Below are positions 306-36,478 of a DNA stretch of 64,000 bases, one piece after another. Each line of letters opens with the position of its first letter. The stretch's first letter is position 1. This stretch comes from Cladopsammia gracilis (lineage: Eukaryota; Cnidaria; Anthozoa; Scleractinia; Dendrophylliidae). The position numbers and the translations under genes are program-made. The stretch covers positions 248,001 through 312,000 of the forward strand of contig JAJGOT010000437.1 of assembly GCA_022457155.1 (NCBI GenBank). The letters run 5' to 3'. The notes below the pieces were generated by a model. The model ran no database searches and had not been told where the DNA came from. It saw nothing but the letters and a program-made list of their open reading frames with translations.

Positions 306-557
306 CTGCCAACTGTTGATTTAAAGTCATTTGTTTCCCGAGGCATTATCCTTTTCACTCACATTGTTTGAGATTTAGAGCCATGTAATTTCAAGTAAAA
401 GCATTTTTCATTCATTAATTCTTTACAACCTCGGCGATTCAACAGATTTGTGCTTAATATATCCCTATTTGTGATTGATGAATTCAGAGAGAATAAAGAA
501 GTTGATCAGAATAAGCGCGTCTTTTTTGTCTCTTTTATCTCAGCAGCAATTTCATAA
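306..557. other. Probable 3' UTR and intergenic sequence
   Basis: AT-rich sequence after the stop codon with an AATAAA hexamer near 492. No other gene signal is seen. Confidence 0.35.
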
Positions 558-746
558 AAGCAATAGAACACATTTTCTATGACTTTACCGGCGTAATAGA
601 ATCACTTGGGATGTTGGGAGAACACTCGAAAAGCTTGTAAACCACTCGCCTACGGCTCGTGGTTTACAAGCTTTTCTCGTGTTCTCCCAACATCCCGCGT
701 GGTTCTATTACGCCGGTAAAGTCATAGAAAATGTGTTCTATTGCTT
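558..746. repeat. Foldback MITE, copy 1 (near-perfect palindrome)
   Basis: Two arms of about 85 bp are inverted copies around a short centre (ACTCGCCTACGGCTCG). The arms start AAGCAATAGAACACATTTTC and the motif ACGCCGGTAA occurs in both. A nearly identical copy in the same orientation lies at 10,029-10,217, differing by only a few bases, which implies recent movement or gene conversion. Confidence 0.85.
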
Positions 747-969
747 AAAGAAAATTAGAACACAAAAGAACGACAATACAATGCCCTTCTTTGTTGTTTA
801 ATTGCCGCCAAGCTTAAGCAACCTGGTTTGGTGGCTTAAATTTAATGAGAATTCTATTGTAGTTCGCCGACTCTCGTAACTTTAAGCGAGTTGGACAAGC
901 AACTGTTTTCACGAGATTTCCGACTGTCACTCGCTCAGCGACTTGAAAAATCGCTCGTGAAAACACGGC
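747..969. repeat. Partial MITE related to the element at 35,751-35,925
   Basis: The block around TTAGAACACAAAAGAACGAC and CTTTGTTGTTTAATTGCCG is the reverse complement of sequence inside 35,751-35,925. It ends with the same terminus (CTCGTGAAAACACGGCC). Its other end is unclear because the foldback at 558-746 abuts it. Confidence 0.55.
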
Positions 970-3844: not shown

Positions 3845-5932
3845 CTAAAAAACAAGCCGAACAGCAACAACGTGGCCATTCCATGACGGGGAGCCCAAAA
3901 GGGAATTGGTGTTACGCCCCTGCCGTAGGGCCGAGGTGCCTTTGAAAAACTGGTAACCAACCACAAAACCCCAAAACTCCCTAACCAAAAGGGGCCAAAA
4001 AGGGGAAGAAGGCCAATATGGCAAGACTAATGTACCCTGAGCCTTGGAGAGGAACATAAACCTAAGCACCTTAGAAAGGAGAACGACTGGGGGTACCACC
4101 CAACAGTTTTCATTCTGCCATGCCTGAAAAAATGCATCCACCCCGGAGGAGCCAGGATTCCAAAACCTAGAATTAAATCTAGGAACCTTGTTGTTGTAAA
4201 AAGTGGCAAAACAGTCTATGGTGTGGGGCCCCCAACGAGTGTCCAATAAACGGAAAATCTCAGGCGCAACCTCCCAATAATCGTAATCAATAACCTTACT
4301 CAAATAGTCCGCCTTCTCATTCAAGGAGCGTGGGACCCACTCAATCTCCAGGCAAATGTGATGGTTAAAACAAAAAGAGAAAATGTCAGAAGCCATTTCA
4401 TGAAGGTCAAACTTCATACTCCCAACCTGAACAATCCTTGCCGCTGCTTGACTGTCGGTGAACCATTTCACCCTGGAATTGAAAAGAGACGTACTCAGTG
4501 AACGCAAAACAAAACGGATGGCCGCTAATTCCCGATAGGTTGAACTCTGAGCTCGTTCCGCAGAAGTGAGCATCCTATGAGCATAAATGTCTTGTCCAAG
4601 GACATGACCGCCACAGGCAAAGTCACTGGCATCCGAGAAAACTGAAATAAACGAAGAATTACAAGAGGAGAAGCTCCTGGCGTTAACATGACGAATATTA
4701 TCCCTCCAAAATTGAAGCTCCACAATACAGTATCTGTCTAGTGGAAAAAGAGTATCCCAATCTTGCGCTGCTGCAACGGACATCTGACAATGTTTAGTCA
4801 TAATATTGCTGAGGTTCATCAAAACAGGGCCCATGGAAATAATTTGGCCCACAAGAGAGGCCAGAGCCCTCGCGGACAAATGAGGGTCTGACAGAGCTAC
4901 AAACCCTTTTGAAGCCGGGGTTCTGTGATGCTAATGGCTCCCCGGGTCCCATCCCAAACGATGCCCAACCATGTGATAACCTGAACGGGATCCCAAACAC
5001 TTTTGCTCAAGTTTGCAAGAAAACCCGCCGAAGACAGATCAGACCTCATGACACGAGAACTAACGCTACATAAGGCTTCGCTCCGTTCCACGCCCAGGCC
5101 ATCGTCCAGATAAACAACCGAACGTATCCCTTGAGATCGCCAGTGTTTGACCAGCGGCCTAAAGAGCTTGGTAAAAATATAGGGGGCCGAAGATAAGCCA
5201 AACGGCAGCACGGTAAACATGAAAAATTCCGCAGTCCCCGCAGACGTAGCCCAGCTAAAGCCAAGGTAGGGCTGGTGCTCGGGAAAAATATCCAAATGAT
5301 GATAACCACTTTTGAGATCAAATTTAATAAAGCAACAACCCTTATCAAAATAATCCAGGGCTACCCTCCAGTCCTCAAACTTAAACCTCTGCTTATACAC
5401 ATGCCTGTTGACATATCTTCAATCTAAGATCAAACGCCTCTTCCCACAGCTTTGCACGGAGACGGAGAGAGGATTAACAACCTTAAGGCAGGACCCGGGA
5501 ACGCGAACCACCCGCTTGCTGGAAAGTAACTCCAAGATAGACTCACTAACAAACTCCGAGTTATCCAAAGAAGAACGATTGTTCTTAAAAAAGGCGTAAA
5601 CAGGAGTAACGTAAAAAGGTATCTTATAACCCTCCGTAATACAATCAATAATGAAAAGAGGAGCATGGATCCCCTCCCAAAAACCCACATGGGCCTTAAG
5701 TCTACCCTTAACGTTCAAGTTGGCACGAGAATCTGACTTCTCAGATTCTATCTCAAACACCTCAAGAGAACTATCTACCTCAACAAAATCGTCATAAGGT
5801 CCAGGCGCAACATCGGCATGGGGAAATTCGACATCGTCAATTCGATTTGCTGCTTGACTGATTTCCTTGGGAACTGACAAAGGTACTTTTGACTGAAGGC
5901 CTGAAGCTTGCAGGCTTGTATCCACCCCCGAA
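3845..5932 (-). pseudogene. DIRS-type reverse transcriptase-RNase H, disrupted
   Basis: This is the polymerase part of a DIRS-like (tyrosine-recombinase) retroelement, read on the minus strand in three pieces. Piece 5,925-5,419 ends in the first RT block (GKRRLILD). A TGA then replaces an expected Leu codon, and the RT continues through KFDLKSGYHHLDI, LPFGLSSAPYIF and the catalytic YLDD (bases 5,101-5,112). A one-base frameshift near 4,900 leads into the thumb and RNase H part (SARALASLVGQIISMGP, FSDASDFACGG, RELAAIRF, WFTDSQAA) and the tryptophan-rich tail usual for DIRS. The upstream end is the target site of the 13-kb insertion at 5,933. Its gag portion lies beyond that insertion at 19,000-20,091. 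The element is inactive. Confidence 0.85.
5926..5932. repeat. Target site duplication, left copy (CCCCGAA)
   Basis: The same seven bases follow the other end of the element at 19,000-19,006, and both copies lie in the DIRS gag-pol region. This marks the insertion as transposition rather than rearrangement. Confidence 0.8.
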
Positions 5933-6109
5933 TATGGCGTGCCATTGGTGCCAAAATTAACATTCGTTTTTTTTGTATAAACGTTTTATTTTTCATAGAA
6001 ATTTGGGCTGATACCGGTACATTTTTATTTGAGTAGAGTTTTAATCGTCTTCACTCATTTTCAAAATTGGATACAAAATTTTTATTTTGGTCGACTGTCT
6101 ATATTTGGA

Positions 6110-6416
6110 TCGATTTTGCATCATGGTAGACTTTTTATTCGGTCGATTTTTTTATTTGGGTCAACTTTTTATTCGGGTCGACTTTTATTTGGGAAGACTT
6201 TTTATTCGGGTCGACTTTTATTTGGGTCGACTTTTTATTCGGGTCGACTTTTTATTTGGGTCGACTTTTTATTTGGGTTGACTTTTTATTTGGGTTAACT
6301 TTTTATTCGGGTCGACTTTTTATTTGGGTCGACTTTTTATTCGGGTCGACTTTTTATTCGGTCAACTTTTTATTCAGGTCGACTTTTTATTTGGGTTAAC
6401 TTTTTATTTGGGTCGA
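6110..6416 (+). repeat. 17-bp tandem array in left inverted repeat
   Basis: About 18 copies of GGGTCGACTTTTTATTT. The core alternates between two palindromes, GTCGAC and GTTAAC, and the third A/T block between TTTG and TTCG. The array is open in several frames, but those products (repeats of GRLFIWVDFLF) are a by-product of the repeat. Subterminal iterons like these are often transposase-binding sites; that role is inferred. Confidence 0.88.
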
Positions 6417-6434
6417 GTCTACGGGCTTCTCAAC

Positions 6435-6465
6435 CAGCGGTTGGTCGCCAGGAAACCAACCGCTG
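6435..6465 (+). promoter_or_regulatory. Inner hairpin of left inverted repeat, upstream of HECT start
   Basis: CAGCGGTTGGT and ACCAACCGCTG form a perfect 11-bp stem around a 9-base loop. The inverted repeat homology stops one base after the hairpin. It lies 63 bp before the HECT start codon, so it is in the promoter or 5' UTR. An identical stem precedes the integrase gene at 18,157-18,187. Confidence 0.6.
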
Positions 6466-6528
6466 AGCCACATATTGGGGACGTTGTGCTGACGTTGCTG
6501 CTTTACACGTGGGTGGACGTGGGTAGCA

Positions 6529-9500
6529 ATGGCGGAACACTCGACGGAAGAAACTCAGCGAGTTCTTCGGCAGTGCGCAAGCACACTGCTATCAGCAGTT
6601 TCAAGATTAGGACGGCCTTCTTCTTCTTCTACGGCTTCACCTGCCTCAACACCGCTCAGACCAGTGTCATCAGCAGTTTCAAGATTAGGGCAGCCTTCTA
6701 CTTCTACGGCTTCACCTGCCTCAACACCACTCAGACCAGTCTCAACGGCACTGCAAGAACATCGAAGGCTGTTTGGCTTTCAGCCGCCAACTTCAGCGAA
6801 ATCCTCGAATTCTGATGGCCGGGGAAAGCGGCGGAAAATTGCGAAGCCGCAGTGGTCTCACACTTTCGTTTGTTTGTTAAAGGTGGATGATTTAACTGTG
6901 CCTTCCTTTATTGAGAAAGGAACATTAGCTATTGCAGGGCTTGGTGAGACGAAAATTGCTTTCCCGGCGGGAAAAGGTTGCAGGGTGTTCATAGATACTA
7001 TCGAAAGTGAGTTTCCTAAACTGAAAGACGGTGGGGGATTCGAAATTTTGCGCGCCGATGGCAAAAATCTGCTAGTGGTTCCTTCACCTCCTGGTGGTTA
7101 CACTGTAGAATACTTGCAAGGAGTGCTCAACCAGGCCAAGGGATATATCCGGCCATTGCAAAAGAATCTATCGGCAGAAGCTTTTCCTACAGCGGAGGTA
7201 AGGTTGCCAATCTTAAATTTTAAAATAAGAACGACAGAAAATTTTCTACTTCCAGTGCATAGTTCCTGACCTAGTCATCCAAATAATGACCATCCCCCTG
7301 AAAGGCATCAATAAATACTGACCCAATACCTTTATTGAAAAAAAAATGAGCATCCTATCCTGTAACTGAGTGAAAATACCTGTGAACTCTCTCCCCCATG
7401 CCCTTTCCTTCACCCCCCATCCAGAAATAATTGCTAATGCCTAAACTTCTAGACTTCAGTTGCCCAGGGAGCAGGCCCCTGCTATGCAGTTTGTGCTACT
7501 GGATTGGATCAGGTTTCTTACCTTCTAAGATGCTCTGAGTTGGAGAGTCCTGTTTCAGTTTAATTTGAAGTGTTGTTGCTTGCATTTTCCTCATGGTAAA
7601 AGTTCCTTTCTTGATTGTGATGGGAAAATATAAGGGCAGTATAAGGCCCCGAGGACCCAAAAATCCTCTCACCTCCTTAGTTCAGCAAGGAAAAGCCAAA
7701 TTTCACTTGCCCTCCCCCTCTCCATTTTATGTTTCTATGGATAGAGTATGAAAAAGTAGATATTTCTAATTTGTGGTTTCAGAAGAGTTGGGTATAGTAT
7801 CATTATACCCTACTCTCATTACTACTTGCAAAGTAATACATCCCAATATACATGACAATGAAGGTTCTTGCTACTTTTCAGCTGAGAATGGGAAGGGGTG
7901 AAGAGGTAAATAGTCAAATAGTGGCAGCATTATGATAAACTGTTGTACTTAGTGTATGTAGCCTTTTTAAGGAAACATAAAAACTACAATTTCCTAGGGA
8001 TGGAATATTTGGTGAGTTTTCTTGGAATTCAATTAGTATGGTCAGCCACCCAAAAACTGGTTTCTTCCTATGCCAGCCTTTCCCATGTGTCTTTCAGTCA
8101 CCTCAGAAATTTAGAACTGTCTATAAAACAGTATCCAGTAGCTATGGAGGTTTTGCACGGAAGCCATGTTGCATGGCAGGAACAATAGATTCTTTTCCCT
8201 ATGGGAAAGAATGTTCTTGCTAATGCAAAACATTTTCATTGTTCCTTCCATGCAACATGGCTGTCGTGCAAAACCACTATAGGCATTTTATATAGCCCCA
8301 CTTCCCAAAGGTCAACTGAGATCAATTTCTGCTTAACACTAAAAATGCTGTGCTACTCCCCATGGCCATGTAAACCCTGTGAATGGGTTGACAGTCAATT
8401 CTTTACTATCATTGTTTTTTTTTATTTCAGTCAGACGATTCTTATACAGTAGAATGCTTGAATTGTTTTGAAGACATTCCTTGCAGCAAATTTAGAGACC
8501 ATCAGAACAGCTGCTGTACAAAAGGTATAGGGTCTATTTAGAAAAGTCCATATTACAACTACCAGTAGTAGAACTAGGGTGATATCTTATATTATAAAAT
8601 AACTGAGATACTACGCGCGTTCTGATTGGCCAAAGACCTATTAACTATTGTGCCGGTAAACTCATAGAAAACCGCGCAAGCGAAACTGTAAAGTAAACAA
8701 AGTTCAATTTCCCACTGCATCAACACAAGCGTGAGGAAAAAGAATTTCACAACTCGAGCCGGTTTAGTGTCTTATTACATATTGCGGTCTGTTAGAAGAT
8801 GAGAAGAGAAGATATGTTTCTTGTAAACGATAAGTTGCTGCTCAAACCTACAAAATAAAAAAAAAAATTCACACGCTCGCAAACAAAAAACGGCTTAACG
8901 ACAAAGAACACTAAGCTTTAATATTTTAAAACTGATATCAACAACAGGAATATATTTTCATTTAACATTGGCTTTGAAAGGCTTACATGCAGCGATCAAT
9001 GACAATCAAAACAACCTCGATACGTACTTTGTGAAGTTCACTGAACTGAAGGTTTAGCTATTAGTGGAAAGCTCAAAAATTATGGATCCCAAAGAGAAAA
9101 CAATGGCTTTCAAACTGAGGAATTTTCGATTGAAATTCACTGAACTGAAGTTTATAAATGTTCCTACAAATCCTAAGATAACTTCTAAATAAGACGGATT
9201 TTCACAGTGGAATTAAAAAGCAAGGCTTAAGCTTATAGCTTTGTTGTTTAGGATAAGCTTAATTATTTTACGCCGATTCCATTTATCTTACGCTTTATCG
9301 TGTTTTGTTTTTGAGATTTTTTCATTGAATACTTTTGTACCCGATGCAGTTTAAATTCTGATTATGTGTCCAAGCAAGGATGATCAATTAGCAAAAAGAA
9401 AATGAAGCTAACAAAAATTATAGGTTTATGGTTAAACAAATTATTTGCATGGAATGATCAAACAATTCAACTGTAGGCTTAAAAAACAATGAGCTTAGTT

Positions 9501-12111
9501 TTCATTCAGAACTTAAAATGTAGAGAAGTACGGGCTTCATTGTACACTTCAAAGTAAGTGGATAAAGTCGAAAACATTTTCAGAAGCTGAGTTTCTGGAA
9601 CTAACCTTTATTCCAATTGAAAAATTCTTGACAAGAAGGCAATCTTTGAATCCAACATAACTTACGCCATAAAAATTTTAGGCTTTCAAACTTTCCTCGT
9701 ACATTCATGTTTGCGGCGGCAGATTCCGGACACAATTTTCTGGATTTCCCATTCAAAGAACTTTTGAATCATTGAATATATTTTCTTCTTTCAGCTGATA
9801 AATTCCAACTGACGAATTTCAAAGCGCTAAAACTTTTCATCACTTTCGTTGAACCCGTGAATTTGTCAGTGCAGCTTTGTCAGTGGCATCGTGTAAAGTT
9901 CATTCTTTCAGCGGCTCTGATTGGTTTTCCCGGTCATATGATGAATGTTGTGAGAACAAGCTACTTGATCGGCACAAAACTACAACAAATTTCTCTCTTT
10001 CCAAACGCTTTTCATAGTTATTTCATAAAAGCAATAGAACACATTTTCTATGACTTTACCGGCGTAATAGAACCACTTGGGATGTTGGGAGAACACTCGA
10101 AAAGCTTGTAAACCACTCGCCTACGGCTCGTGGTTTACAAGCTTTTCTCGTGCTCTCCCAACATCCCGCGTGGTTCTATTACGCCGGTAAAGTCATAGAA
10201 AATGTGTTCTATTGCTTAAATAAATTATGTGGATTCAAAAAGAAACATCGCCACAGAGTGTACCATATTGTATTGGTGTGATTCTCTCCCTAACAGCAAA
10301 ATATCCTTCCAGGATCAATTCTTGATCTTAACCTAAGTTTCCCAGGATCCCACCGGGCATTGCATTGCTTATATGGTTGTAAATTCTAATCCGAACGTAT
10401 TCCTCAAGATCATAATCAATGAAGAAGTCTAAAGAGCACCATTGCTAGAGGAATTAAATCACTTATGTCTGCCACAAGGAAAACTAAATTGTGTTCAGTT
10501 GTTTCATATACATGTTGAATGCACGTGAACCAAAGGATTTTAGTATGTGTATTTCCAAATGCTGCCGCCAAAATGGGAAACCTACCAACAGGCACAGAAA
10601 GAAAAATCCATTGCCTACATTGAGGAAAGATTTGGGTGTTGGCCTTTTGTATTTATGTGCCTGAGATATTGGTATACCTTAAAAATGCCTGAATACCTGT
10701 ACAGTATGGTAGGAGTGTTATGTTAAAATAAATATCACAAACTTCTCTTATAAGAAAAGAGGAAATTTTCAACTATTTTTCTTTTGCAATTTGTTTACAT
10801 GTAGTTTCACAAGAAATCATAGTTGCAGACCAGATCGAACGTGACCATGAGTTTGCTGTACAACTGCAGAATGACGAAGATGCTGACATTCTTGTCAGTT
10901 CCGTAGAAAAGTCTGCATCTGTCCCCCATCCCTGTACACTGAAAGAGGCCTTACTGCAGATCAAGAAGTCAGTAACCTCTTCTAGTAAGTCCAAGGAGCT
11001 TAGCTTTTTTGTCCAGCGATCAAGAGTTTGGAAGAACATTTTGGAAGAGCTTAAAACCATTGAACTATCAACATGTAACATGTGTGTTGAATTTGTTGGA
11101 GAGATTGCCGTGGATACAGGAGGGCCAACTAGAGAGTTGTTTTCTTTGGTTTATCAGCAAGTCATGACTGGTAAACTGACAAGAGGCTCACCTCCTAATC
11201 TGACATTCATGCATGACCAGGGTGCTCTAATGGCTGGTGAATATAAAGCTCTGGGACAAGTGATTGCCCTCTCATTTCTGAATGAAGCTAACGGGCCACA
11301 TTTCTTCAGTCCTACTGTTGCACAGTACATCTTGGGTATAAATTCCAATACCGACCCGTCCAGCATGGTGGATGAAATTCCAGATGACCAATGGGAGATT
11401 AAAAATAGATTAAAGGCCCTATTACAGTGCGAAGATCCCAACACTTGGGATGAAACCATCCTAAATTTTGAAGAGCGATTTGACATGGGGATTACAAAAG
11501 CAAAGATCCCAATAGAGGAGAAAAATGAAGTGATTAAAGCCACCAACAGGCACATCATGGTAAGCAGTGTAGCAGAGGAAATTTTCAGTTTCCAAGAAGG
11601 GCTAGCGGCTTTTGGGGTGTTGGATGCCTTGAAAGAATTCCCAGACGAAAGTGTGAAGCAGTTCATTTATGCACAGGTGACCGTTGATGATATCATGAAA
11701 ACATTTCATCCAATGTTTTCTATTACTGGGTCATCCAAACGTCAATTTGAAGAGACAATAGTTTTCAACTTCTACCAGTTCCTGAAGCAGTGTGACAAAG
11801 GAAGTGTCAAAAGAACATTTATTGATGTTACCTCTTTGGAATCGGAGGAGGTCCAGGAAATGGAACAGTCACTGACCCTGCAAGATGTCCTGCAGTTTCT
11901 GACAGGAGCAAGAAATGTACCTCTGGGTGGCATTGACGGAAGCATTGAATTTGTGCATGATGCTCTCAGAGGTGTCAGAGTTAAGGCGAATACCTGTGCT
12001 TTACAACTCACTATCCCAATTAATGAAAGATATCTTAGTGAAGAGTCTGCAACATTCACATCAAATTTTGCAGATGACATTTTTGATGGGCAAGGCTATG
12101 GCCGTGTTTAG
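6529..12111 (+). CDS. HECT-type E3 ubiquitin ligase with UBZ-like finger (G2E3-like), three exons
   Basis: Exons are 6,529-7,197, 8,431-8,524 and 10,805-12,111, joined at GAG|gtaagg, ttatttcag|TC, AAAG|gtatag and gtttacatgtag|TT. The frame stays open and gives 689 residues. The first ATG is used. Residues 20-75 hold two tandem copies of a Ser/Pro-rich 26-mer. Residues about 107-215 form a domain (WSHTFVCLLK, FPKLKDGGGFEIL) seen in G2E3-like HECT proteins of fish and corals. Exon 2 is a C-x2-C-x11-H-x3-C finger (C232, C235, H247, C251), like Rad18-type UBZ ubiquitin-binding fingers. Exon 3 is the HECT domain: DTGGPTRELFSL at its start, GGIDGSIEF, and the catalytic cysteine in ANTCALQLTIP (Cys652, bases 11,995-11,997). 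It should form a thioester with ubiquitin and pass it to substrates. All key residues are present and no disruption is seen. It lies inside a transposon, which suggests mobile cargo. Confidence 0.88.
6588..6741 (+). repeat. Two-copy 78-bp coding repeat in HECT exon 1
   Basis: Two adjacent, nearly identical units encode SAVSRLG(R/Q)PSSSTASPASTPLRPVS. The in-frame duplication lengthens a Ser/Pro-rich linker before the first folded domain. Confidence 0.75.
7198..8430 (+). other. Intron 1 of the HECT gene
   Basis: GT-AG intron in phase 0. It contains a foldback hairpin (8,149-8,274) and otherwise unremarkable sequence. Confidence 0.8.
8149..8274. repeat. Short foldback MITE in HECT intron 1
   Basis: GGTTTTGCACGGAAGCCATG at the left is matched by the inverted CATGGCTGTCGTGCAAAACC at the right, with arms of about 40 bp (including GTTGCATGG and AACAAT) around a 45-bp centre. 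Confidence 0.75.
8525..10804 (+). other. Intron 2 of the HECT gene
   Basis: GT-AG intron in phase 1, 2,280 bp. It contains AT-rich sequence and the second copy of the 190-bp palindrome (10,029-10,217). No additional exon was recognised. Confidence 0.75.
10029..10217. repeat. Foldback MITE, copy 2
   Basis: Nearly identical to 558-746 in sequence and orientation. Sequence similarity does not extend clearly beyond the palindrome. This copy lies within the 13-kb transposon, while copy 1 lies outside it. Confidence 0.85.
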
Positions 12112-13187
12112 ACCTTGATCTTGTACTGCAATCAAAAGAATAACTCTTGCTGATGGTAAGTAGTGTGCAGAGTTATTTCCTGTAACTCTGATCACAAGGT
12201 TATTGTTTAATCTGAAAATGTTTATTTTCTATTATCAGTAAAGTTAAAGTCACAGGACAGAACAAATCCGTGCAATTTTGTAAACATAAATACCCAGCTT
12301 CCTTTGTTTGAACCTGGTTTCATTGCCACTCTTAGAATTGTGTAAAAAAATGTAAATATTGGGCAACGCAAGAGTATTGTTTTTAAAAATCTAGCTAGAC
12401 ACAGGATTTGCTTTGTTGTGCCTTGTTACTGTCAATGCATAGAAAACAGCGAGGGATTCTGGTTAATATGGTATATTTTTAAGGCTGTTTCTGTAATTGT
12501 TGTTGTAAAGCAAACCCAAAGGAGTTACTAATGCAATGAATCAATTCAGAACACACAGTAATTTTCTAAATATTGCTTTTTTGTGTGTGTGGCCTGATTG
12601 GCTGAAATTAACAAAAAACCTGACATGGACATGTTCATGTTCATGTTCATGTATGTTCTGATTGGTTAGAGCACAATGCACGAGATTGTTGTTATCTGAA
12701 ACAAAGAAGTATAGTCGAAAACCTGTTACTACGATCATTGATCATTACTATTATAATTAATGATCATACATAGTTAATTAGTTTATTTTTTCTGTTCATG
12801 ACATCCATCTATTTAAGGTCAACACACATGACAAGTCCTGGGGCAAGTGCTATTTTTGTCAAAAACATATAGTCGCACGGACCAAATGTGTCCCTGCGAC
12901 TTGTCTCAAAAATTCAAACTGGTTTGCAATGTATTTAATTATTTAAATGTCCATTTATGTGTATTGTACTGAAAAAATACCAACCAAAGACCAAATTGGA
13001 CTGTCCCTGCAACAAGTCCCTTTGTGTCTGCTCAAGGGACCTGTCTCATGACACAATATTGTCACAAGTCCATGCAACCAATCTCCTTGTGTACATGTTA
13101 CAAGGAACTTGTCCCTTTATATCTGCTGACGTTTACATTGTTAATGGTGTTTTCACTAAAATTGTTATTTCTATAGTTGTTGTATAG
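12112..13187 (+). other. 3' UTR of HECT gene and intergenic sequence
   Basis: No coding signal. A short CATGTT microsatellite occurs at 12,630-12,655. The 12,830-13,140 part repeats CAAGTCC, TTGTCTC and GGGACTTGTC-like motifs in both orientations and may be an old MITE. No clear AATAAA close to the stop codon was seen. Confidence 0.45.
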
Positions 13188-13839
13188 CTCAAGCATGTTA
13201 AGGCATGGTTCAGAGCCTAATTTGCATAAAATCTGAAAACGATCGTAACTTTGAGGTGATTTACCTAAACAAGCTCAAACTTAGCAGCAGGATAAAACTT
13301 GATAACCTTAAACCACTGTTTACGCTAAATGTCCAATATTTACATCACGTGACCTGTTATCATTGTTTTATTACACAAAAAGAAAATTGAAAATGGGGTG
13401 ACAAGATGGCATATGATGGATATAAATTGAACCATTAATGTATTTGTATGATTCTTCCTTATATAAATCTGGCCGGAATAGTTGACTATGATTTACAGTT
13501 AAAGGGTTATTTCGTAAAAGAGGTCATGTGACATATTTTGTCTCTTAACATCTTAATAAAATAAAAAAGTCGTCCATTCAGGGCACGGATAGGCTTTATG
13601 CATGAAGGCAAAAAATTCTGTATGATTTTCTCTTAGCCAAAGTTAACCATCCATTGTCGAAAGTATGACGTCATCAGACACAATAATTAAACCTTACGGA
13701 ATTTAAGAACGCTAAATCCAGTTTGATGTTTACTTTTTGTGATTGTAAGGGCTAAAAAAACATTACTTCTAAAGTGAAAAAGATGTTACTTCGCGGGGGG
13801 TCTACACCAAGGGATGAACCATGCCTTAACATGCTTGAG
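13188..13839. repeat. MITE with 25-bp terminal inverted repeats
   Basis: The left end CTCAAGCATGTTAAGGCATG is matched by the complement of CATGCCTTAACATGCTTGAG at the right. The 650-bp interior has no coding capacity. Confidence 0.7.
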
Positions 13840-13849
13840 TGCTTTACTG

Positions 13850-13989
13850 TTAAGGCTGTTTTTCCATTTATAAATTGATATTCTTCCTGTTTTACTGTTA
13901 AGGCTGTTTTTTCATTTCACCGCCTACTGTTTAGCTCAGTTGATAGAGCACCGGTCTGCAGAGCGGGAGGTCTTGGGTTCGAACCCCGG

Positions 13990-14025
<36 letters not shown>

Positions 14026-14430
14026 TGAAGGTGCTGCCTTTGCTATGACATCGGCAAATGGTTAGACCTTCACGTGGCTCGGATGACCACGTAGAAATGG
14101 CGGTCCCGTCTCCCATGGGGACGTAAAAGAACCACTGAGGACGTAACAAACCCTGGCTGTGACCACCCTCATTGTCACTTGTTCATGGGTGGGGTGGGTG
14201 TGATTGATTGTGAAGCGCATTTGAATATGTATATAGAATTTGCGCTATACAAATGCATAAATTTATTTATTTATTTTTATTTATAAATTGATATTCTTCC
14301 TGTTTTACTGTTAAGGCTGTTTTTTTTTTTCATTTATAAATTGATATCCTTCCTGTTTTACTGTTAAGGCTGTTTTTCCATTTATAAATTGATATCCTTC
14401 CTGTTTTACTGTTACGGCTATTTTCCCAAT
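13850..14430. repeat. Satellite of about 50-bp units, split by a SINE
   Basis: Units of the form TTTATAAATTGATATCCTTC followed by CTGTTTTACTGTTAAGGCTG are repeated about five times. The SINE at 13,927-14,280 lies between the second and third units. Confidence 0.75.
13927..14280 (+). mobile_element. tRNA-derived SINE
   Basis: The head has RNA polymerase III boxes: box A (TAGCTCAGTTG) and box B (GGTTCGAACCC). The tRNA-like part has an anticodon loop reading CTGCAGA (GCA, Cys-like). It is followed by a body of about 270 bp and a tail (GCGCTATACAAATGCATAAA then TTTATTTATT). The body and tail show it is a SINE and not a functional tRNA gene. Confidence 0.75.
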
Positions 14431-14431
14431 G

Positions 14432-14785
14432 TTACAGCCATGCTCCGTCATGCGTGACCAGTAATCTAGAGAATGAAATGAACATTTGAATATTTCTTTG
14501 TAACGTCCGAGATTTGAATGAAACCTTTAAGATCTCTGTGGAAAACACTTTGAAAGTCACGAATTAACGGAAAATAACTTCGCTGCACGCATAGAAAACC
14601 TAATAATGTTCGGATATGTAACATTTCAAACAAAATGATATTTTGTTGCTCTTTGTTTCCGAAAATGTGGTAAAATTCTCACGGGAATTCCGAATCTCGG
14701 AATGAATTTTCAAAACCGACGCTTAATCTTAAACGCCATTCAATTTTCAAAAATACTGGTCATGCATGACGGAGCATGGCTGTAA
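14432..14785. repeat. MITE with about 32-bp inverted ends
   Basis: The left end TTACAGCCATGCTCCGTCAT is matched by the inverted ATGACGGAGCATGGCTGTAA at the right. Both ends sit next to AATGTTA, a possible target duplication. Confidence 0.75.
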
Positions 14786-16800
14786 TGTTATGTACTTTCC
14801 GTTTTTACTGGAAAGTCAACTTTGTCATTGATAATTTTATGTGTTGTAACCCAGTACTATTGATGTTGACAATCAATGTGTAACTCTCTAAACTTATCTA
14901 TGGCAAAGTTTGAAATAAAAAAACAATGTTAATTACTAGAAAAAATATCGCCAGAGGAATGTCTCACTTTTTCTCTGCTGGTAATTGTCAGTGTTACTGA
15001 GTTACGTAATATCACATTCTCTCTGTTGTTTAAAATATGTTCCATGTACTTAACCAGTTTTCCATAGTTTCCATAAACTATTCTGGCTAATAAAGGTGTA
15101 AGCATCAACAATTCCATGTGAATTACAACAATATTATGGCAAGGTAGAGTTGCACATAGAATCAACAAGCAATTGAAAATAGCTGCTGAAGCATTAAGAG
15201 ACAGATCAACATACCCTAATTACGAATAACAGATGAAACAAACTGAAGGGTTTCGATGTAGATAACAATGCCATGGACATTACTTTCCCTAAGAGGATCA
15301 ATTTGCCTTTGCAATTCTTCTTCGTCATCAGGACTTAGTACTTGTGTTATGACAGGCACTTCAACAGCTTCATTTGTTTCAGCTTCCTGAGGAAGTGGTC
15401 CATCCCAGTCTATACCATACTCGTCAATCTCTTCCTGAAAGAAAAAACGGTGAAGTAATAGTGCGGAGGGTTGTTTTTAAGAGAAAGAGCATGGAGTGGA
15501 AACCAGGTTAAAATTCCTGGTCATTGTACAGTGTCTATAAGTTGAAAGTACATGGAATTGTTAAGTTTTCAATAGATGGTATAGGTTTGCTATCTCTGCT
15601 AGAATTATTGTGATATATTTCTCTTAGTTTTGCCCAAGCATATACCGACTGTATGATTGATGGTGCAGTTTTGACCCAAAAATAGCTAAACCCTTGTGAC
15701 AGCACCCCTTTTAGAAAACCATTCTACAATGCTTTAAAAAAAAAGCCAACAACCCTGATTTGCCAGATCTATTTATGACGTACCAGTGATAGACATGTCA
15801 TTTCGTGTAGCAAGATAACAAAAGTTTGCCCTGGTACTGGTGCATGTATTATGTTCTTACATGTATGACAGGTAATTATGCTCAACAGTTACTGACAACT
15901 ATTTCTTTTTGTTCAAAACAATTTTATTTGGACAATACATTGTTTATATTACTACATTGCAATATTATACAAGACAACTATTGTTGTCATGGCAAGTGCT
16001 TTACCTGGCGTAGTGGCTCATAAATCTCCTGTGATGTTCTGTGAACAGAATTTGCATTTCCAAGCACCCCCATTATGTAAAACTGCATTGGTGTCCGATT
16101 TCCTGCAGTACTTATCTTATGGTGTATCCAACCATCTTTCCATGTTTGCAAATGCCTATTGATCCGCGGAATAAATACAAAATGCAAACAGTACAAGTGA
16201 ATTTCGTCAGCGGGTTGAAGCATCCCACAATCTTCCAAGGGGTAAAAGAGTTCATAGTAAGTGCTGGCCACTCCTTCGTAGACATCACGCCACAAACGCT
16301 CAATCCTTTGATTGTGAACGCTCCGTCCACAAATCATACTCCCACGTCCTGGACCTCGCAAAGGATGCTGGAGCATAAACATCGAAACTCCCACATTAAT
16401 TTTCTCCCCCTCTATCCGACCTCACACGAGACGGAAGACCATACTCTCTGACAGCAGCTTGGAATAAGGATAAAACAGTGTCAGCGCGATTGTTATTTGA
16501 GCAGCACAGAAACACTGGTATTCTTGTATGCCCATCACATCCTCCATGTATCACAAACCTTCACCTAATATGATTTTATAAAACAAAGTGTTAAATAAAA
16601 ATGTTGTTAACATCAAGTTGAATTGTAGTTTTCACTAGTCCCAATAAAGAGCAAGATCTGTTAGGAAATAAGAATTAATCTTCGCACTCGTTTTGTTCAT
16701 GTGACAATATTATGTAAAATTTTAATGCATAGACCCACTGTTTTTCTACTGCTTTGTAATTATATAGCTTTTTATACAACACCTCAATCAGCATTTTATT

Positions 16801-17164
16801 TACCATAAATCCTCTATTAAGCCCTCCCCTCTTCTCAATTAAGTCCTCTTCCTTTTGGAGCGATAAATTTATTAAGCCCCCCTTTTTTAAAGCCCCCTCC
16901 CCTTTCCCTTCACAACCAGACAGACTGTATTACCGGTACATTTGTCAGTTCCAATCAGGACACAAATTCGCATACACACAGTACTCGCGAGCTACTGATA
17001 CTTGTACTAAATATAATCATAATTAAAGTACTCGATGAGTGGTCAACTGCTGGTGTTTCATTACATTCAGTTTCAATAAGCCCCCCCCCCCCCCCCCCTC
17101 TCAAATGCATTTGGAATAAAGCCCCCACCCCAGCCCCCGTGGCTTAATGGAGGATTTAGGGTAT
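16801..17164. repeat. MITE with AAATCC..TTAAGCC ends in integrase intron 1
   Basis: The left end CATAAATCCTCTATTAAGCC is the imperfect inverse of the right end GGCTTAATGGAGGATTTAGG. The interior is full of TAAGCCCCC motifs and a C homopolymer near 17,080. Confidence 0.6.
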
Positions 17165-17221
17165 GAGGGGGACTTATTCAGGAATCTCCCCATTCCCTTA
17201 ATCTTTCAGTACTTCAGCCTA

Positions 17222-17306
17222 GTCTGCGTCGCAGACGTAATTCAACCCTTGGTTAAGCGCTGATTCACAGATGATCTTAACCAAGGGTTTAATTAGGTCT
17301 GCGACA
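17222..17306. repeat. Small foldback hairpin
   Basis: GTCTGCG..GCAGACGTAATTCAACCCTTGGTTAAG is answered by CTTAACCAAGGGTTTAATTAGGTCTGCGAC as an imperfect inverted repeat within 85 bp. Confidence 0.6.
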
Positions 17307-18156
17307 AGGGCTACTCTCGCCCCTCCCACTCCCTCTCGTACTAAGGACCTCATCGAAGTCAGCTGTTGGCCGTCTTAAGTAATAATAATAAAACTGAATA
17401 ACGCGTAGCTGTAACACATTACCTTATCAACTTATGATTGCCGTCGATGTGCCAAAGAGCCAGTGGTCCATAAACTCTGTATTTTCGTCTTCGACAAAGG
17501 GATCCCCATCTCTGCACCACACCTATTGGGTCCACTCTTCTCAGAGACTCCCTGTATCGAGACCGTGCGACAACTACGCCTCTTCTTCGAAGTTCGCCTT
17601 CTAAGCGACGGTATCCGATCCTTGGAAACTGACGGGCTATTTCCATAACTACTACGTCAAGTTCGATATCCGATATGTTTGAACGTAACATATTCGAGAA
17701 AAGCCTGTTGTCCTCAATTCTCCTACGAACAGTCCTGAGGGAAACGCCAAGCATAACTGCGATATCCGGCCCCCTAAAGCCATTCAGAAGGAAGTATTCT
17801 AGCTGACGTTTCGAAATTTCATATCTTGGCCTTCCTCTTCTTCCAAGTCGTTGGAGAGGTGCTCGATAACCTAAATCGTTCGTCATTTCTTCCCACTGGC
17901 GAAGCAGTGCAATGGCGCTACTAATGCTCGACAACACATCTTCGAGGATAGCATTTACTTGAGAAAGTTGAAACACTTCTCTCCACATTTGATCAAGACG
18001 ACGATGAACATAATCAGCGTCTTCAACACTGAATTCTCTATCATTTTTCTCGAGTATAATAACTATTTCATTAATTTGCCTTTCCAATTCCCTGCTTAGA
18101 ACGGACGAGTCGTCGGCGACGTCCATATTGAAACGGGGCACAACGGGTTCTTGTGT

Positions 18157-18187
18157 CAGCGGTTGGTTTCCTGGCGACCAACCGCTG
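18157..18187 (-). promoter_or_regulatory. Inner hairpin of right inverted repeat, upstream of integrase start
   Basis: The same 11-bp stem as at 6,435-6,465. It is 30 bp from the integrase ATG, so it lies in that gene's promoter or leader. Confidence 0.6.
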
Positions 18188-18196
18188 GTTGAGAAG

Positions 18197-18830
18197 CCCG
18201 TAGACTCGACCCAAATAAAAAGTTAACCCAAATAAAAAGTCGACCCGAATAAAAAGTCGACCCAAATAAAAAGTCGACCCGAATAAAAAGTTAACCCAAA
18301 TAAAAAGTCGACCCGAATAAAAAGTCGACCCAAATAAAAAGTCGACCCAAATAAAAAGTTAACCCGAATAAAAAGTCGACCCAAATAAAAAGTCGACCCA
18401 AATAAAAAGTTAACCCGAATAAAAAGTCGACCCAAATAAAAAGTCGACCCAAATAAAAAGTCGACCCAAATAAAAAGTTAACCCAAATAAAAAGTCGACC
18501 CAAATAAAAAGTCGACCCGAATAAAAAGTTAACCCAAATAAAAAGTCGACCCAAATAAAAAGTCGACCCGAATGAAAAGTCGACCCAAATAAAAAGTTAA
18601 CCCAAATAAAAAGTCGACCCAAATAAAAAGTCGACCCAAATAAAAAGTCGACCCGAATAAAAAGTTAACCCAAACAAAAAGTCGACCCAAATAAAAAGTC
18701 GACCCAAATAAAAAGTCGACCCAAATAAAAAGTCGACCCGAATGAAAAGTCGACCCAAATAAAAAGTCGACCCAAATAAAAAATCGACCGAATAAAAAGT
18801 CTACCATGATGAAAAATCGATCCAAATATA
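18197..18830 (-). repeat. 17-bp tandem array in right inverted repeat
   Basis: About 37 units of the complement of GGGTCGACTTTTTATTT, with the same GTCGAC/GTTAAC alternation as the left array but twice as many copies. Long open frames here are artefacts of the repeat. Confidence 0.88.
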
Positions 18831-18999
18831 GACAGTCAACCAAAATAAAAATTGTGTATCCAATTTTGAAAAATGAGTGAAGACGAGTAAAACTCTACTC
18901 AAATAAAAAATGTACCTGCATCAGCCCAAATTTCTATATAAAAAAAAGGTCTATACAAAAAAAAACGAATGTTAATTTTGGCACCAATGGCACGCCATA

Positions 19000-19006
19000 C
19001 CCCGAA
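19000..19006. repeat. Target site duplication, right copy (CCCCGAA)
   Basis: Matches 5,926-5,932. The sequence beyond it is the DIRS gag zinc-knuckle exon. Confidence 0.8.
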
Positions 19007-19083
19007 ACGTCCACATTCGGCACTCCAATGCCCCTGTCTTCCGCAGCGAAAGCAGGTGTCAGTTGAAGAAGGGAGTCGACGGC
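19000..19083 (-). pseudogene. DIRS gag zinc-knuckle exon, cut by the 13-kb insertion
   Basis: On the minus strand an acceptor (TCTGTTTCTTTTTTCAG) is followed by a frame with a CCHC knuckle, CFRCGRQGHWSAEC (C-x2-C-x4-H-x4-C), typical of nucleic-acid-binding gag proteins. The frame runs into the transposon end at 18,999. With the transposon and one duplication copy removed, sequence continues into the RT region at 5,925. The RT frame stays open back through this exon, so gag and pol overlapped in different frames here, or one G of the G run was gained. The pyrimidine-rich stretch before the exon looks intronic. Confidence 0.7.
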
Positions 19084-19199
19084 CTGAAAAAAGAAACAGA
19101 ATAAAAAAAGGGGGAAGAAGGAAAAGTAGTAAAAGGACTAAAAAACATAAAACAGATAAAAATATACAAAATCTATTAAATATACACACAAATAAAGCT

Positions 19200-19380
19200 T
19201 AAAAAAGCCAAACTACCGTCGAGTAGTGCACGTGCACGTGATGACAACCTTGACGCTAAAACCTCCTTATATCCCTTAGTGGGGTCTCAAGAGACCCCAC
19301 GCGCTAACGGCGCTAACACAATGTGTTAGCTGGCATGCATAGCATGCTCACGCTGAACTTCCGAAGGAAAATACATTTTC
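19200..19380. repeat. Direct repeat A (about 180 bp) beside DIRS gag
   Basis: About 97% identical to 20,108-20,284, in the same orientation. It contains a perfect hairpin, GTGGGGTCTC-AA-GAGACCCCAC, and two smaller inverted motifs (GCTAACACAATGTGTTAGC and GCATGCATAGCATGC). It may be a split direct repeat or terminal repeat of the retroelement. Confidence 0.75.
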
Positions 19381-19562
19381 ATTCTACCTCGCCAAGCTCG
19401 TACGAAGGAAAATCATTTTCCTTCTACAGAACGCTGAAGCATAAACACACGCTACAACAATGTAAAGGCAGGCAGTGTGCGAACACTTGCCTACAACGTG
19501 ACATTCAAATAGGGGGAACGAAATACCTCGAAAAAGCTGCCTATCGTCATTAAAAGTACTAG

Positions 19563-20091
19563 CACGCACCCGAGAAGCGCCAAACGACGAGCTTCTATCT
19601 CTGTCCGCCCTCTTCGGAACATTTTCCTTCTTTTTGAGCGCTCGCTGCTGTGCTTTTCTGATCCACTTTTCGTCTTCGGAATCGCTAGCTAGCTCCTCGG
19701 CCTGATACTCTTTAACTGCAAGCTAACCCGCCTCGCTTTTGTCGGCAAGTTTGATGATTTTCTGTCGACGCTTGAGACTCTTGTCCAAGTCTGCTAGCTT
19801 CTCCTGCGCTCGGTCGACGTGTTGGGCTGCCAAGAAGTTTTTAGCTTCGTCCAGAGTACCTGCAAGTTCTGAATTAAACAGAAATTGGTCCTTGTTTCCA
19901 GCAAACTTGAGTTTCTCCGCTTCAGCGACTCTGGTTAGCTTTTGCGTCTCCGACGAAGAACGGGAAACGAGCCCGGACGAAATAGATTCCACCTTCTCGT
20001 CAAGATAACTCTTGAATCGCTGGAATACTGCGTCCACCGGAGCACTATCGGCGCTTTTAGAAGACGAATCCCGTTCCGGCGAAGACGGCAT
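19563..20091 (-). pseudogene. DIRS gag-like N-terminal region, one stop codon
   Basis: The minus-strand ATG at 20,091 opens 122 residues: a Ser-rich start, then SYLDEKVESISSGL, KFAGNKDQFLFNSELAG and a Lys-rich coiled-coil-like end (DKSLKRRQKIIKLADKSEAG). A TAG at 19,723-19,725 follows, but the same frame continues with plausible protein (LAVKEYQAEELASDSEDEKW, then a basic stretch) to about 19,563. TGG to TAG is the simplest explanation. This gag type accompanies DIRS-like RT genes in coral genomes as I recall it. It is flanked by the two 180-bp direct repeats. Confidence 0.65.
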
Positions 20092-20107
20092 AACGAAACC
20101 AGCAAAC

Positions 20108-20284: not shown

Positions 20285-21170
20285 CAGTTTGGCAAAAATT
20301 CGAGCAAAAGTATTGGTGTACGGTGTGTTGCCCAGTTTCCGGCCAAAAAAATTACGTCGGTTATGTTCGTTGGAGATTTAAATTTTCGTCCACCGAAGCA
20401 TTCCGAAAGAAAGACGAACATTTCCGCTATACGTTGGTGGTTTTTGCGCTCTTTTTGAACAAGAAACGGTCGAGGAAGGACGTGTTTCGTTCAGGTGAGT
20501 AAACGTTTGGCGATTAGTTTTGGCTCGCTTCACTGCACAGCAAAACTACCGTAGACAAACAAATAGTTCGTTTCACAGGAAATATCTCAAGACGGAAGGG
20601 CGACACCTTTTCGAGACAATAAACCTGGGAATAAATGGTTTCGCTTTTTAGTTAAGCGAAACCACAAGTGAAATTACGAAAGGCCCGCACACTTGAGAAG
20701 AAAAGGGCTAAGATCTCTAAAGAGGATGTAGACGCCTGGTTTGATAGATTTGAAGCATTTTTGGTCGGAAAAAATCTTTTAAATAAACCATCACAAATTT
20801 TGAACTGTGATGAAACCGGTTTCTATATGGGAGGCAGACCTGGGAACATTATTGGCCCATCTGACAGGAAGCAAGCACCGTATCGCATCCTTCCAGGAAA
20901 CCGAGAACATGTAACTTTGTTACCTTGTTTTAACGCTTGCGGTCAGTGGATTCCCCCATATTTTCTTAAACAAGGTAAGCGCATTCCCGCAACTGACAAT
21001 CTGCTGCAAGGAGGCATCGAAGGCAGTGTCTTTTCAATGACGGATTCTGGTTATATGGACACACAAACGTTTTACATGTGGTTTGCAAATCACTTGTGAC
21101 AAAGTTGCCTCCAGCAAGGCCTGTTGTCCTACTTATTGACGGTCATGATTCTCATCTTAATCTGGAGTTA

Positions 21171-30310: not shown

Positions 30311-33023
30311 CTAATTGTACTCTATGTTTTCAGCCATCTTTCCCAATTTCCCACTTTTTTGCTCCAGGTGTTTCTGGAACGCTTTCAGAATGGCAATAAA
30401 ATGATCCAGCATATTTGCGTCACAATTGGAACCCGCCTCTTCAATACAGCCAATATAATCTGAAAACGAAGTCCCAAGGTTGTTTTCCAGCCCTATCTTA
30501 GCTAGGGTCACATCTCGTGTTATGCATTTGCGCACGGCATCTCCAACACACGTTTTGTAGCTGTCCTTCTCTGTCGACAGAAAAAAAATAAATCAATATA
30601 AATTATTATTATATTATTTTTTATACCCTACGGAAAGCTGGAGCTGGCCAAGATTCTACAGCACGGACTTGATTGGCGTTAATTAGATGATATTTATCAA
30701 ATTCTACCATTGGCAACATGTCAACCATGCTTGTCACTTTCGGTGCGTTGTTATTGAAAAATTCGGCACTAGGGTTTCTGGGATCGTTTGGGTACTCAGC
30801 GTTCGTTACTGTGGTTTTCTAAAGCAACGCTTTAACCATTCATGGCTCGTATTGGTTACCCAAACGATACCAGAAATCTCAAAACAGCTGGTACTTAGTA
30901 TTCCTAAAGTTTCTCGTAAAGCGAATTATCTAAGAAGATGAGATTTTTTTTTTTCTGACTAATTTCGGTTAAAGTCTAATACTTCAGGGATGGAAGATGT
31001 GTGTATTTAAGTTTCTAGCATAGTAAATCTATAAATTTCCTTTTTACCTTGGTTTGGTTAATATTTTCACGATCTAAAGGTTTTTTAGGCAAGGTTGGTA
31101 GCTGTGCTCAATTTATAAGAATAAAAATAGATAAATTGCTTTTCATTGTTCAGTTCAATTCTGGCATATCCTTCGAATGTTCCATACGAATATGCTCTTA
31201 AAACAGTAAATTACTTACCAACATTCGGCAATTTCTCTTTTTTCATTATGCCTAGAATAAATCAGAACCATGGACATCAAAATTGCATCTCGGATAGTAA
31301 TTTTACATTTTCTTAACAAGCAATTGTTAATATATATAGTACAACTTTCCGTCCTTATATTTGTATTTTGCTCTGCATATCTATGCATAGAGCACTCATA
31401 GAACAAGTAAAACATCCTATACATTGTTTAATATTACATTGGAACAACAGGCTCGCAAATTGAAATTCAGACTAAGTTCAAGAAATTTCAAGAGAATACA
31501 CCTACTTATGTACAATCAAAGGGCTCTAAGATCCATGGGAATATGAAACAACGTAAGAATAGTTTTAATTGTCCGTTATGTTTTGTTATTAGCGGCGTTT
31601 ATTTGTAGTAAATAAATACATCCATTTTGTGAATCGAGACAGCTGGATAAAGTAGTACACTGGGTAATTATTAGTAAATAAATACATCCATTTTGTGAAT
31701 TGAGACAGCTGGATAAAGTAGTACACTGGGTAATTACCAACAACGGTTTACAGCCGAGTTAGCGAGCGAAGACAGCGATCGAGTGACATTTCACTCATCG
31801 CAACGAAAGAAACGGGATCATGAATTTTCCATAAGACAGGGCAAAACCTGAAAATATACCTGTAGCCATTATGATTTTCTTCAGTTCATCGGTCTGCATG
31901 TCTTTGCAAAGTCCTGCTCTCTTCATAATTAACATGAGCTGCCAATCATAAGCGAGCATGAAGTGGAGCATATCGGGGACCGGTGATGTGTAGTCAGCAG
32001 GGTCTGTGTCTATAATGCACTGAACGAATTCCTGTAGACGAGTAAAGAAAAGTTTAGTGAGACAGAAAGGAAGGTTGATGGTACCAGGTCTCTGGCTACC
32101 TCCTGAACTGAACTGAACTGAACTGAACTGAAGTAGTTTCATCATGGACCTGCGTTCAACGTTTTGCAAAGAGTTGTAAATTAGTGGCTGGTCTAGGATT
32201 CTTAAACTTGTACAAAACAGTCGAAAAAAAAAAAGGAAAATATATATACAATTGACACCTTAAAAGCTGCCAAGGAACAAAAAAAGTTTATTTATAACAA
32301 GTTTATGTTCTCCACGCTCGTAAAGTTTTAATAAGGTGGATAATTTTCTTTTGGCGACACAACATAAACGTTAAACAGGTGATAGTTTACTGCATGAGCT
32401 GGGTGAACAGACAAGCTCCCTTCATATACTTATGATGAAATTAAAGTCGATTTGATTGATAGAAGTGTTATTATAATACCGATCTGAGGACGTCAATGTT
32501 TTTGCATATTAACATTTTTCTCTAAACTTTTTAATTTTGTTAAATTGCTGCAAGAAAACAATTTTGGAACTGGAAAGTGCCTTTTGAAAATGACTTTTGT
32601 GGAACTTATGAATATTTAATTGCACAGCCTGCAATGCAAACATTGACTGAGTGCCCGCGCAGTTAACTTCCTTTTGAAGTTTTGAACAAAATATAAATAT
32701 GTCGAAGACAGCTCATTTTCAGTTGGACAAAATTGTATCACCCCTTCCTTTCTTATAAAAAGATTGAGGAGTCTTAATTGGTTCATCTTGTCTACAGAGA
32801 GCGTACCCAACAAAAGTTACTTCAGATTAAGCCTTACCTTTAAACATTTGCAGGTTTGTTCCATCAGCTCATCCTCGTTGTTGGGATCAGTAACGACTGC
32901 ACGCCAATTTGATCCAGCACACTTAAGTGCTGCATTATTAGCAACTTGGCGATCTAAGGCATGTCCGCTCACAAAGGAAATGAAAGAAACAGCAACAATA
33001 ACGGAGACTGTCGTTGAAAACAT
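30311..33023 (-). CDS. Secreted cysteine-containing protein, four exons, unknown family
   Basis: Exons on the minus strand are 33,023-32,838, 32,031-31,860, 31,251-31,219 and 30,570-30,311. Junctions are standard: TTAAAG|gtaagg, ctacag|GA, ACAG|gtatat, attctag|GC, GTTG|gtaagt and gtcgacag|AG. Phases agree throughout, giving 216 residues. Residues 1-22 (MFSTTVSVIVAVSFISFVSG) are a clear signal peptide and no membrane segment follows, so it should be secreted. Nine cysteines are spread over the mature chain (KCAGSNW, TCKC, FVQC, GLCKD, KTCVGD, RKCITRD, IGCIEE, SNCDAN), suggesting disulfides in a mostly helical protein. The third exon is only 33 nt (11 residues). No family was recognised. The gene looks intact. 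Confidence 0.65.
31219..31251 (-). other. 33-nt microexon of the secreted protein gene
   Basis: Bounded by TTATTCTAG and GTAAGTAA. It keeps the phase (1 to 1) and adds IMKKEKLPNV. Skipping it would also leave the frame intact. Confidence 0.5.
31607..31737. repeat. 66-bp tandem duplication in an intron
   Basis: Two nearly identical copies of AGTAAATAAATACATCCATT through GTACACTGGGTAATTA. Confidence 0.85.
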
Positions 33024-33286
33024 ATTTGACAAACCAAGGACTCCTAAAATGAACTGGGCAAAAAACAGAGAGGTCGATTGACATGTGCAGAAAAAATAGT
33101 ATTTTGTAAAAGATGTAATTTTTGGTGGAGATGTTAAAACGAGATGGTTGCACAATACAGAAATAGGGATAAATTTTTTTTTTTTCATCTTAAAGTGAAG
33201 TTCAAGGCGACTTGTTTTGATTAAACTACGGAAATCGGCATGTTAAAATATATTGTGCTCCATTCTTTCTTATCTCGTGAATAAAC

Positions 33287-33430
33287 CTAATTCAGTAAAG
33301 GTTAACGTTGCTTTGGGCATTTGGCAGTTGTTGTTTGGCGGTCACTAAAGCAAAGCATTGCATTGTGTTCCGTATGCGGAAAAGCCGATGCCCAATTACC
33401 AATTGGCAAAGCAACATTTATTGAATTAGG
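33287..33430. repeat. Foldback MITE, family also at 59,093-59,241
   Basis: The ends CCTAATTCAGTAAAGGTTAA and CAACATTTATTGAATTAGG are inverted copies. The same family, better preserved, occurs at 59,093. Confidence 0.7.
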
Positions 33431-33637
33431 TATACCCAAAGCTTTGAACGAGATATAGTATCTTTATCTCGTTTCTTCCTTCCCTTTATCCATCCATCCA
33501 TGGGCTGTCAACGTTTATCGGTAGTTCCTTTTTTCCCCAAATGCAAAGAAATATATTAGGAATACTCGTCCACAGAAAAAGACATTACATTATCAACACG
33601 ATAAACCGACGCTTCGCGTTTAAAGCCCTTTGATGGC

Positions 33638-33816
33638 AAAAGACTATTTTGCTAATGTTGTGTTCCCAGTGCATCTTGGGTAGTTCTAGTCCTTTGTGGG
33701 GGCAAACGGCCAAAATTAAAATTTTAAATTACCTGCCAAACTGGTCGTTTCCCCCCACAAAGGACTGGAACTACCCAAGATGCACTGGGAACACAACATT
33801 AGCAAAATAGTCTTTT
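33638..33816. repeat. Foldback MITE adjoining the large inverted duplication
   Basis: Arms of about 75 bp (AAAAGACTATTTTGCTAATG, TTCCCAGTGCATCTTGGGTA, TCCTTTGTGGGGG) are near-perfect inverted copies. Its right end lies 11 bp from the start of the left arm of the large inverted duplication. Confidence 0.85.
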
Positions 33817-36477: not shown

Positions 36478-36478
36478 T

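Follow-up and report, generated by a model that had tools for sequence, protein, structure and literature searches.

Structure and insertion site of the element

The 64,000-nucleotide stretch of the Cladopsammia gracilis genome analyzed here (the window; G000:C1095:248001-312000, from the 878-Mb assembly that is called the own genome below) contains a 13,067-bp transposon with two genes, one for a predicted HECT-type ubiquitin ligase and one for a DDE transposase. The element spans window positions 5933 to 18999, with both ends exact. It starts with TATGGCGTGCC and finishes with GGCACGCCATA, so that its termini read TATGG..CCATA, and the heptanucleotide CCCCGAA directly abuts both sides (5926 to 5932 on the left and 19000 to 19006 on the right). 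The long terminal inverted repeats (TIRs) reported in the first-pass annotation of this DNA are present: an inverted alignment of the two ends covers 490 columns at 92% identity (449/490), with 8 gaps (E=0.0). The left TIR (5933 to 6466, plus strand) and the right TIR (18156 to 18999, minus strand, ending in CCATA) share an identical inner 67 bp, located at 6400 to 6466 in the left copy, and each includes a 17-bp tandem array, with 19.9 copies on the left (6079 to 6416, plus strand) and 37.9 copies on the right (18206 to 18851, minus strand). A tRNA scan of the element found none.

The HECT gene (plus strand) and the transposase gene (minus strand) are convergent, each starting just inside one TIR; the distance from the end of the shared inner repeat to the start codon is about 62 bp for the HECT gene and 29 bp for the transposase gene. 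The proposal that a single transposon holds both genes is supported. The second intron of the HECT gene and the 3.1-kb stretch between the two genes contain nested or tandem repeats, which would also suit a composite in which a HECT-bearing element and an element of the IS3EU superfamily (see below) lie one within the other. This highly improbable arrangement was rejected, given that each gene begins just inside one TIR of a single pair, whose two members share their inner sequence, and that the same convergent order is found at 17 other places in the genome.

To locate empty sites, a 300-nucleotide query in which the two flanks were joined directly, with the element taken out, was searched in the own genome. 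Of the 20 matches, 16 cover at least 294 of the 300 bases at 89 to 99% identity; the others are one match of 73% over query positions 69 to 240, one to the left flank only, and the window's own two halves. Eight loci were fetched. Seven have one unbroken site, which reads CCCCCGAAACG, with the exact CCCCGAA, in five of them and CCCCCAAAACG, with one change, in two; the search word was not found in the eighth (L035). Because these uninterrupted sites lie in related DIRS-like retroelement copies, both the insertion and the 7-bp duplication of CCCCGAA are proven, and the border repeat seen in the first-pass annotation is a genuine target-site duplication (TSD). The element is therefore a once-mobile, two-gene element. 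A host HECT locus lying amid repeats, with no transposon, would be compatible with the abundance of HECT genes: a search of the own genome with the protein of the third HECT exon, in which 97 of 196 candidates were scored, gave 93 matches, many of them far from any listed transposase. That explanation is nevertheless refuted by the uninterrupted sites and was rejected; we give it next to no weight.

The flanks are the two parts of one retroelement copy. The left part (3848 to 5932, minus strand) is the reverse transcriptase/RNase H side (Pfam RVT_1, 2.6e-14; RT_RNaseH, 3e-5, just under the cut-off), and the right part (19007 to 20106, minus strand), assigned to the same copy by continuity in related copies, has a CCHC knuckle, recognized by eye, near 19050; Pfam gave no match over the cut-off for 19726 to 20106. 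A Dam-like match in the flanking retroelement was below the threshold. The claim that the transposon split a single retroelement stood. The class of that retroelement is worded here as DIRS-like, a label taken from the first-pass annotation and from the reverse transcriptase, RNase H and sub-threshold Dam-like matches, which we take to fit the name DIRS.

The HECT gene

In a gene model built from splice sites alone, the HECT gene is divided into three exons whose joined frame stays open over 2,070 nucleotides and encodes 689 amino acids, which agrees with the earlier description of an intact HECT gene. Exon 1 (6529 to 7197, with the ATG at 6529) encodes a conserved N-terminal domain, 46.8% identical to P0004 over 126 amino acids; exon 2 (8431 to 8524) encodes a small Cys/His segment; and exon 3 (10805 to 12111) encodes the N- and C-lobes of the HECT domain, including a conserved cysteine in the motif NTCALQLTIP (all on the plus strand). 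The Pfam HECT match in the window has an E value of 1.3e-12. The cysteine of the C-terminal NTC motif, which we take from the HECT motif to be the catalytic position, is found in 17 of the 17 rows that cover it (the window protein and 16 relatives). Both lobes of the HECT fold are present in the structure predicted from a 20-row alignment, which superseded an earlier prediction from a 4-row alignment (predicted local distance difference test score, 38.9). By its modeled fold and conserved cysteine, the protein is a predicted HECT-type E3 ligase, with ubiquitin transfer as its putative activity.

The identity of the window protein to the HECT E3 ligases HUWE1, Rsp5, UBR5 and E6AP is about 14 to 20%; unlike these, it has an N-terminal domain with no Pfam match and is encoded within a transposon. 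It has the C-terminal HECT domain in common with G2E3-like animal proteins, which are marked by N-terminal PHD/RING fingers. However, a Pfam search of the 689 amino acids at E values up to 0.1 returned HECT alone, with no PHD or RING match and the N-terminal domain unmatched. Membership in G2E3 was rejected on this ground, and the "G2E3-like" label was dropped. No relatives of the HECT protein were found in the viral_contigs and genome_contigs collections.

Nested in intron 2 is a 205-bp palindromic repeat resembling a miniature inverted-repeat transposable element (10020 to 10224, no strand assigned), which is 98.5% identical to a second copy at window positions 549 to 753.

The transposase gene

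The transposase gene also has three exons in the gene model, on the minus strand, with 1,483 nucleotides of coding sequence. Exon 1 (17423 to 18126) encodes the N-terminal region, which includes the first catalytic aspartate and has helix-turn-helix matches below the threshold; exon 2 (16005 to 16564) encodes the rva_4/DDE core but is interrupted by a stop codon at the start and by a shift of frame near 16398; and exon 3 (15216 to 15434) encodes a segment 48% identical to P0022. The open part of exon 2 matches Pfam rva_4 at 1.4e-39, and the stop occupies the position of a residue that is conserved in relatives. Owing to the stop and the frame change, the window copy, as modeled, cannot make a full transposase. 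The earlier description of the second unit as a DDE integrase is thus right as to domain, while the gene itself is broken.

All 15 aligned rows have the DDE residues D215, D272 and E309 (D-56-D-36-E, numbered as in P0005). Ahead of the core, Pfam found no integrase zinc domain, and the helix-turn-helix, below the cut-off in the window protein, exceeds it in P0005 as HTH_21. Among 7,989 scored candidates, 2,179 were relatives of the transposase; the named ones among the 120 listed come from corals, octocorals, anemones, medusozoans, sponges, hemichordates, molluscs and fish, and none of the 120 bears the name IS3EU/GingerRoot. A search of plasmids with exon 1 gave no match.

The two genes differ in their state of preservation. 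Two lesions are seen in the 1,483 nucleotides of the transposase and none in the 2,070 nucleotides of the HECT gene, where an even fall of lesions predicts 2.8; the chance of zero under an even fall is about 0.06. This imbalance is only a hint of constraint on the HECT frame.

Relationship to known transposons

Apart from its 7-bp TSD, the window element fits IS3EU/GingerRoot, a described superfamily, so that, judged by its sequence features, the element type would not be new. IS3EU/GingerRoot elements are described as having TA..TA termini, a TSD of usually 6 bp and no HHCC domain (PMC10045372), and IS3EU ends as reading TAYGG..CCRTA with a 6-bp TSD (PMC12730594). The ends TATGG..CCATA, found both in the window element and in a second copy represented on contigs C506 and C315 (see below), conform to both descriptions. 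The TSD of that copy, CTTTTT, has 6 bp, whereas that of the window copy, established from the empty sites, has 7 bp. The transposase likewise agrees with the superfamily in its DDE core, with a first aspartate 100 to 300 residues from the N terminus (D215 in P0005) and no HHCC domain. For the integrase called "IS3-like" in the first-pass annotation, the eukaryotic superfamily name IS3EU/GingerRoot is the better one.

Accessory genes have precedent in this superfamily. Fungal IS3EU elements have the accessory activities of a TET/JBP dioxygenase and an alpha-kinase (PMC12730594); in the TET-bearing elements, the TET gene lies between the transposase and alpha-kinase genes, which are in opposite orientations. 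The window element resembles these in having an accessory gene opposite in orientation to the transposase, an alpha-kinase gene there and a HECT gene here. It differs from IS3EU/GingerRoot in that the accessory gene encodes a HECT ligase and in its TIRs of about 0.5 to 0.85 kb with 17-bp tandem arrays. Ginger1, Ginger2 and Polinton have an integrase-type DDE core related to that of the window transposase, and we take their gene sets to differ from that of the window element. Their TSDs are 4 bp (Ginger1), 4 to 5 bp (Ginger2) and 6 bp (Polinton), and Ginger1 has the HHCC domain (PMC10045372).

A literature search that excluded Repbase entries, subscription papers and preprints found no paper with both HECT and IS3EU. 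The terms HECT, Repbase, terminal inverted repeats and transposase did not occur together in any paper of this search, and a Repbase record with a HECT open reading frame is possible. One paper, PMC11645255, names both IS3EU and ubiquitin, the latter once.

Other copies of the TIR family

Searches of the own genome with the outer and inner parts of the TIR gave 12 and 11 matches, respectively, both counts being lower bounds, at the same seven places: the window (C1095), C315, C506, two in C1380, C998 and C612. In C998, two outer TIR ends face away from each other. The copies in C506 and C315 have termini of the same kind, and because their flanks are shared and the 6-bp duplication CTTTTT borders both, they are one insertion represented on two contigs, either allelic or duplicated. 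Their interiors differ (L009, C506:136853-144775; L010/L011, C315:1370764-1384587), C315 having additional pieces of the TIR and a second, inverted copy of HECT exon 1.

In the tiles read at the six other places, no HECT-domain or transposase match was found at an E value of 1e-6; four of them (C506, C315 and both in C1380) retain remnants of HECT exon 1 that stops, frame changes or inserts have disrupted. The TIR family thus looks like a low-copy family with derivatives formed by internal deletion. The first-pass annotation had named TIRs elsewhere that never enclose both genes as an observation that would count against it. This is partly what was found, in that the tiles read at all six places lack the pair and those at four retain a trace of the HECT gene.

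These derivatives bear on the possibility that the HECT gene is an old, mostly inert passenger, inherited together with its clade and without effect on transposition. At the four places with remnants, only a decayed exon 1 was seen in the tiles read, and copies without the HECT domain have persisted, both as this explanation predicts. Conversely, the window copy keeps an open frame, the HECT fold and the conserved cysteine, which is also present in all 16 relatives that cover it. We regard the inert passenger as unlikely, though it is the strongest of the rival explanations.

Recurrence of the gene pair

In a profile search of the own genome with rva_4 (PF24764), 150 of 906 candidates were scored, and these 150 do not include the transposase of the window. 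A HECT match lies within 12 kb of 17 of the 150 scored matches, at distances of 3.1 to 9.4 kb, and all 17 pairs are convergent, as in the window; random placement predicts 0.40 such neighbors. Widening the distance to 50 kb adds no pair; at 200 kb, two more appear, one convergent and the other divergent. The spacings are 3,139 to 3,157 bp (three pairs), 3,570 to 3,603 bp (six), 3,715 bp, 3,736 to 3,739 bp (two), 3,905 bp, 4,811 bp, 5,428 bp, 5,625 bp and 9,413 bp. In the control genomes, PF24764 gave matches in 0 of 14.

Because 17 convergent pairs were observed where 0.4 are expected, the HECT gene looks like a recurring second gene and not a one-off capture. The suggestion that HECT and integrase-core copies elsewhere in the genome belong together is borne out at these 17 places, and the term "cargo" is a poor fit to this recurrence if it means a host gene captured once. 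A one-off capture, in which a single element took up a host HECT gene that is now a passenger without a role, would agree with the common capture of genes by DNA transposons and with the restriction of the full pair to the window copy within this TIR family. Its probability is nonetheless low, given both the recurrence and the contrast between the open HECT frame and the damaged transposase.

One HECT relative, at C444:26564-27790, is a lead only and is not counted as a pair. A 24-bp tandem array of 13.7 copies lies 1.9 kb downstream (L050, C444:28501-31500), beside the end CCACCGTA. On the other strand, a 50-amino-acid stretch picked by eye weakly resembles the helix-turn-helix of the transposase (hhalign probability, 58%); its score of 56 was reached by none of 500 shuffles, the best of which scored 55. 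No matching duplication was found, and a tblastn search of those 6 kb with the transposase set was negative. The same contig has a 58-bp tandem array of 36 copies, 94% alike (L051, about 31645 to 33752).

Other features of the window

The window also contains a large inverted duplication (33824 to 44827 and 54750 to 63979) with pieces that are 91 to 96% identical. One of its arms has an open reading frame of 505 amino acids (41205 to 42719), which matches a dynamin-like helical domain below the threshold. Overlapping direct repeats at 47624 to 48504, 77 to 95% alike and offset by about 90 to 420 bp, resemble a tandem array. Finally, an open frame of 147 amino acids at 20656 to 21099 has no Pfam match at an E value of 0.01; by eye, we take it to resemble a piece of a pogo/jerky-type DDE transposase.

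Proposed mechanism and implications

The window element is probably an IS3EU/GingerRoot-type DNA transposon whose two genes converge, the DDE transposase gene being read inward from the right TIR and the HECT ligase gene inward from the left TIR. Several observations weigh against this reading or its extension to other elements. The window TSD has 7 bp, not 6, both genes are seen together only at the window copy among the places of this TIR family, and the ligase activity is a prediction. The 17 pairs are not independent, their spacings suggesting about nine groups; their HECT matches are weak (27 to 59 bits, typical for distant HECTs); and the pairs are defined by gene matches and not by TIRs or TSDs. 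Moreover, for 133 of the 150 scored transposase matches the lists give no HECT match within 12 kb, and likewise no transposase is listed within that distance of the 14 best non-self HECT rows (C444 to C419; 13 loci, 27 to 40% identity). Since the window's own transposase is itself missing from the 150, incomplete listing may explain part of these unpaired matches.

In the proposed mechanism, the transposase would bind the TIRs, where the 17-bp arrays might be repeated binding sites, excise the element and join it to the target at a 6- to 7-bp stagger, in cut-and-paste fashion. As each start codon lies so close to the shared inner repeat (about 62 bp away for the HECT gene and 29 bp for the transposase gene), each TIR may supply the promoter for the adjoining gene. 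The window copy would now depend on transposase supplied from elsewhere. As for the ligase, the first-pass annotation had suggested host defence, the transposase or the cell cycle as candidate targets. Our tentative first choice is that the ligase attaches ubiquitin to a host factor that would otherwise repress the element or compete at its ends, and thereby lets transposition succeed; a somewhat less favored option is that it regulates the transposase itself, by setting its level or its removal.

More broadly, and still speculatively, a large branch of IS3EU/GingerRoot in animals could be a fixed two-gene machine, in which a transposase faces a HECT gene, one TIR drives each, and the ligase is needed for transposition, either removing a host repressor or timing the transposase; many "host" HECT genes would then be parts of transposons. 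If the pairing is general, protein ubiquitination would join the non-transposase activities of the DNA transposons of this superfamily, and a set of gene models from animal genomes, HECT and "integrase core" alike, would be relabeled as one transposon family. Whether a transposon needs its own ubiquitin ligase to move would then become a testable question.

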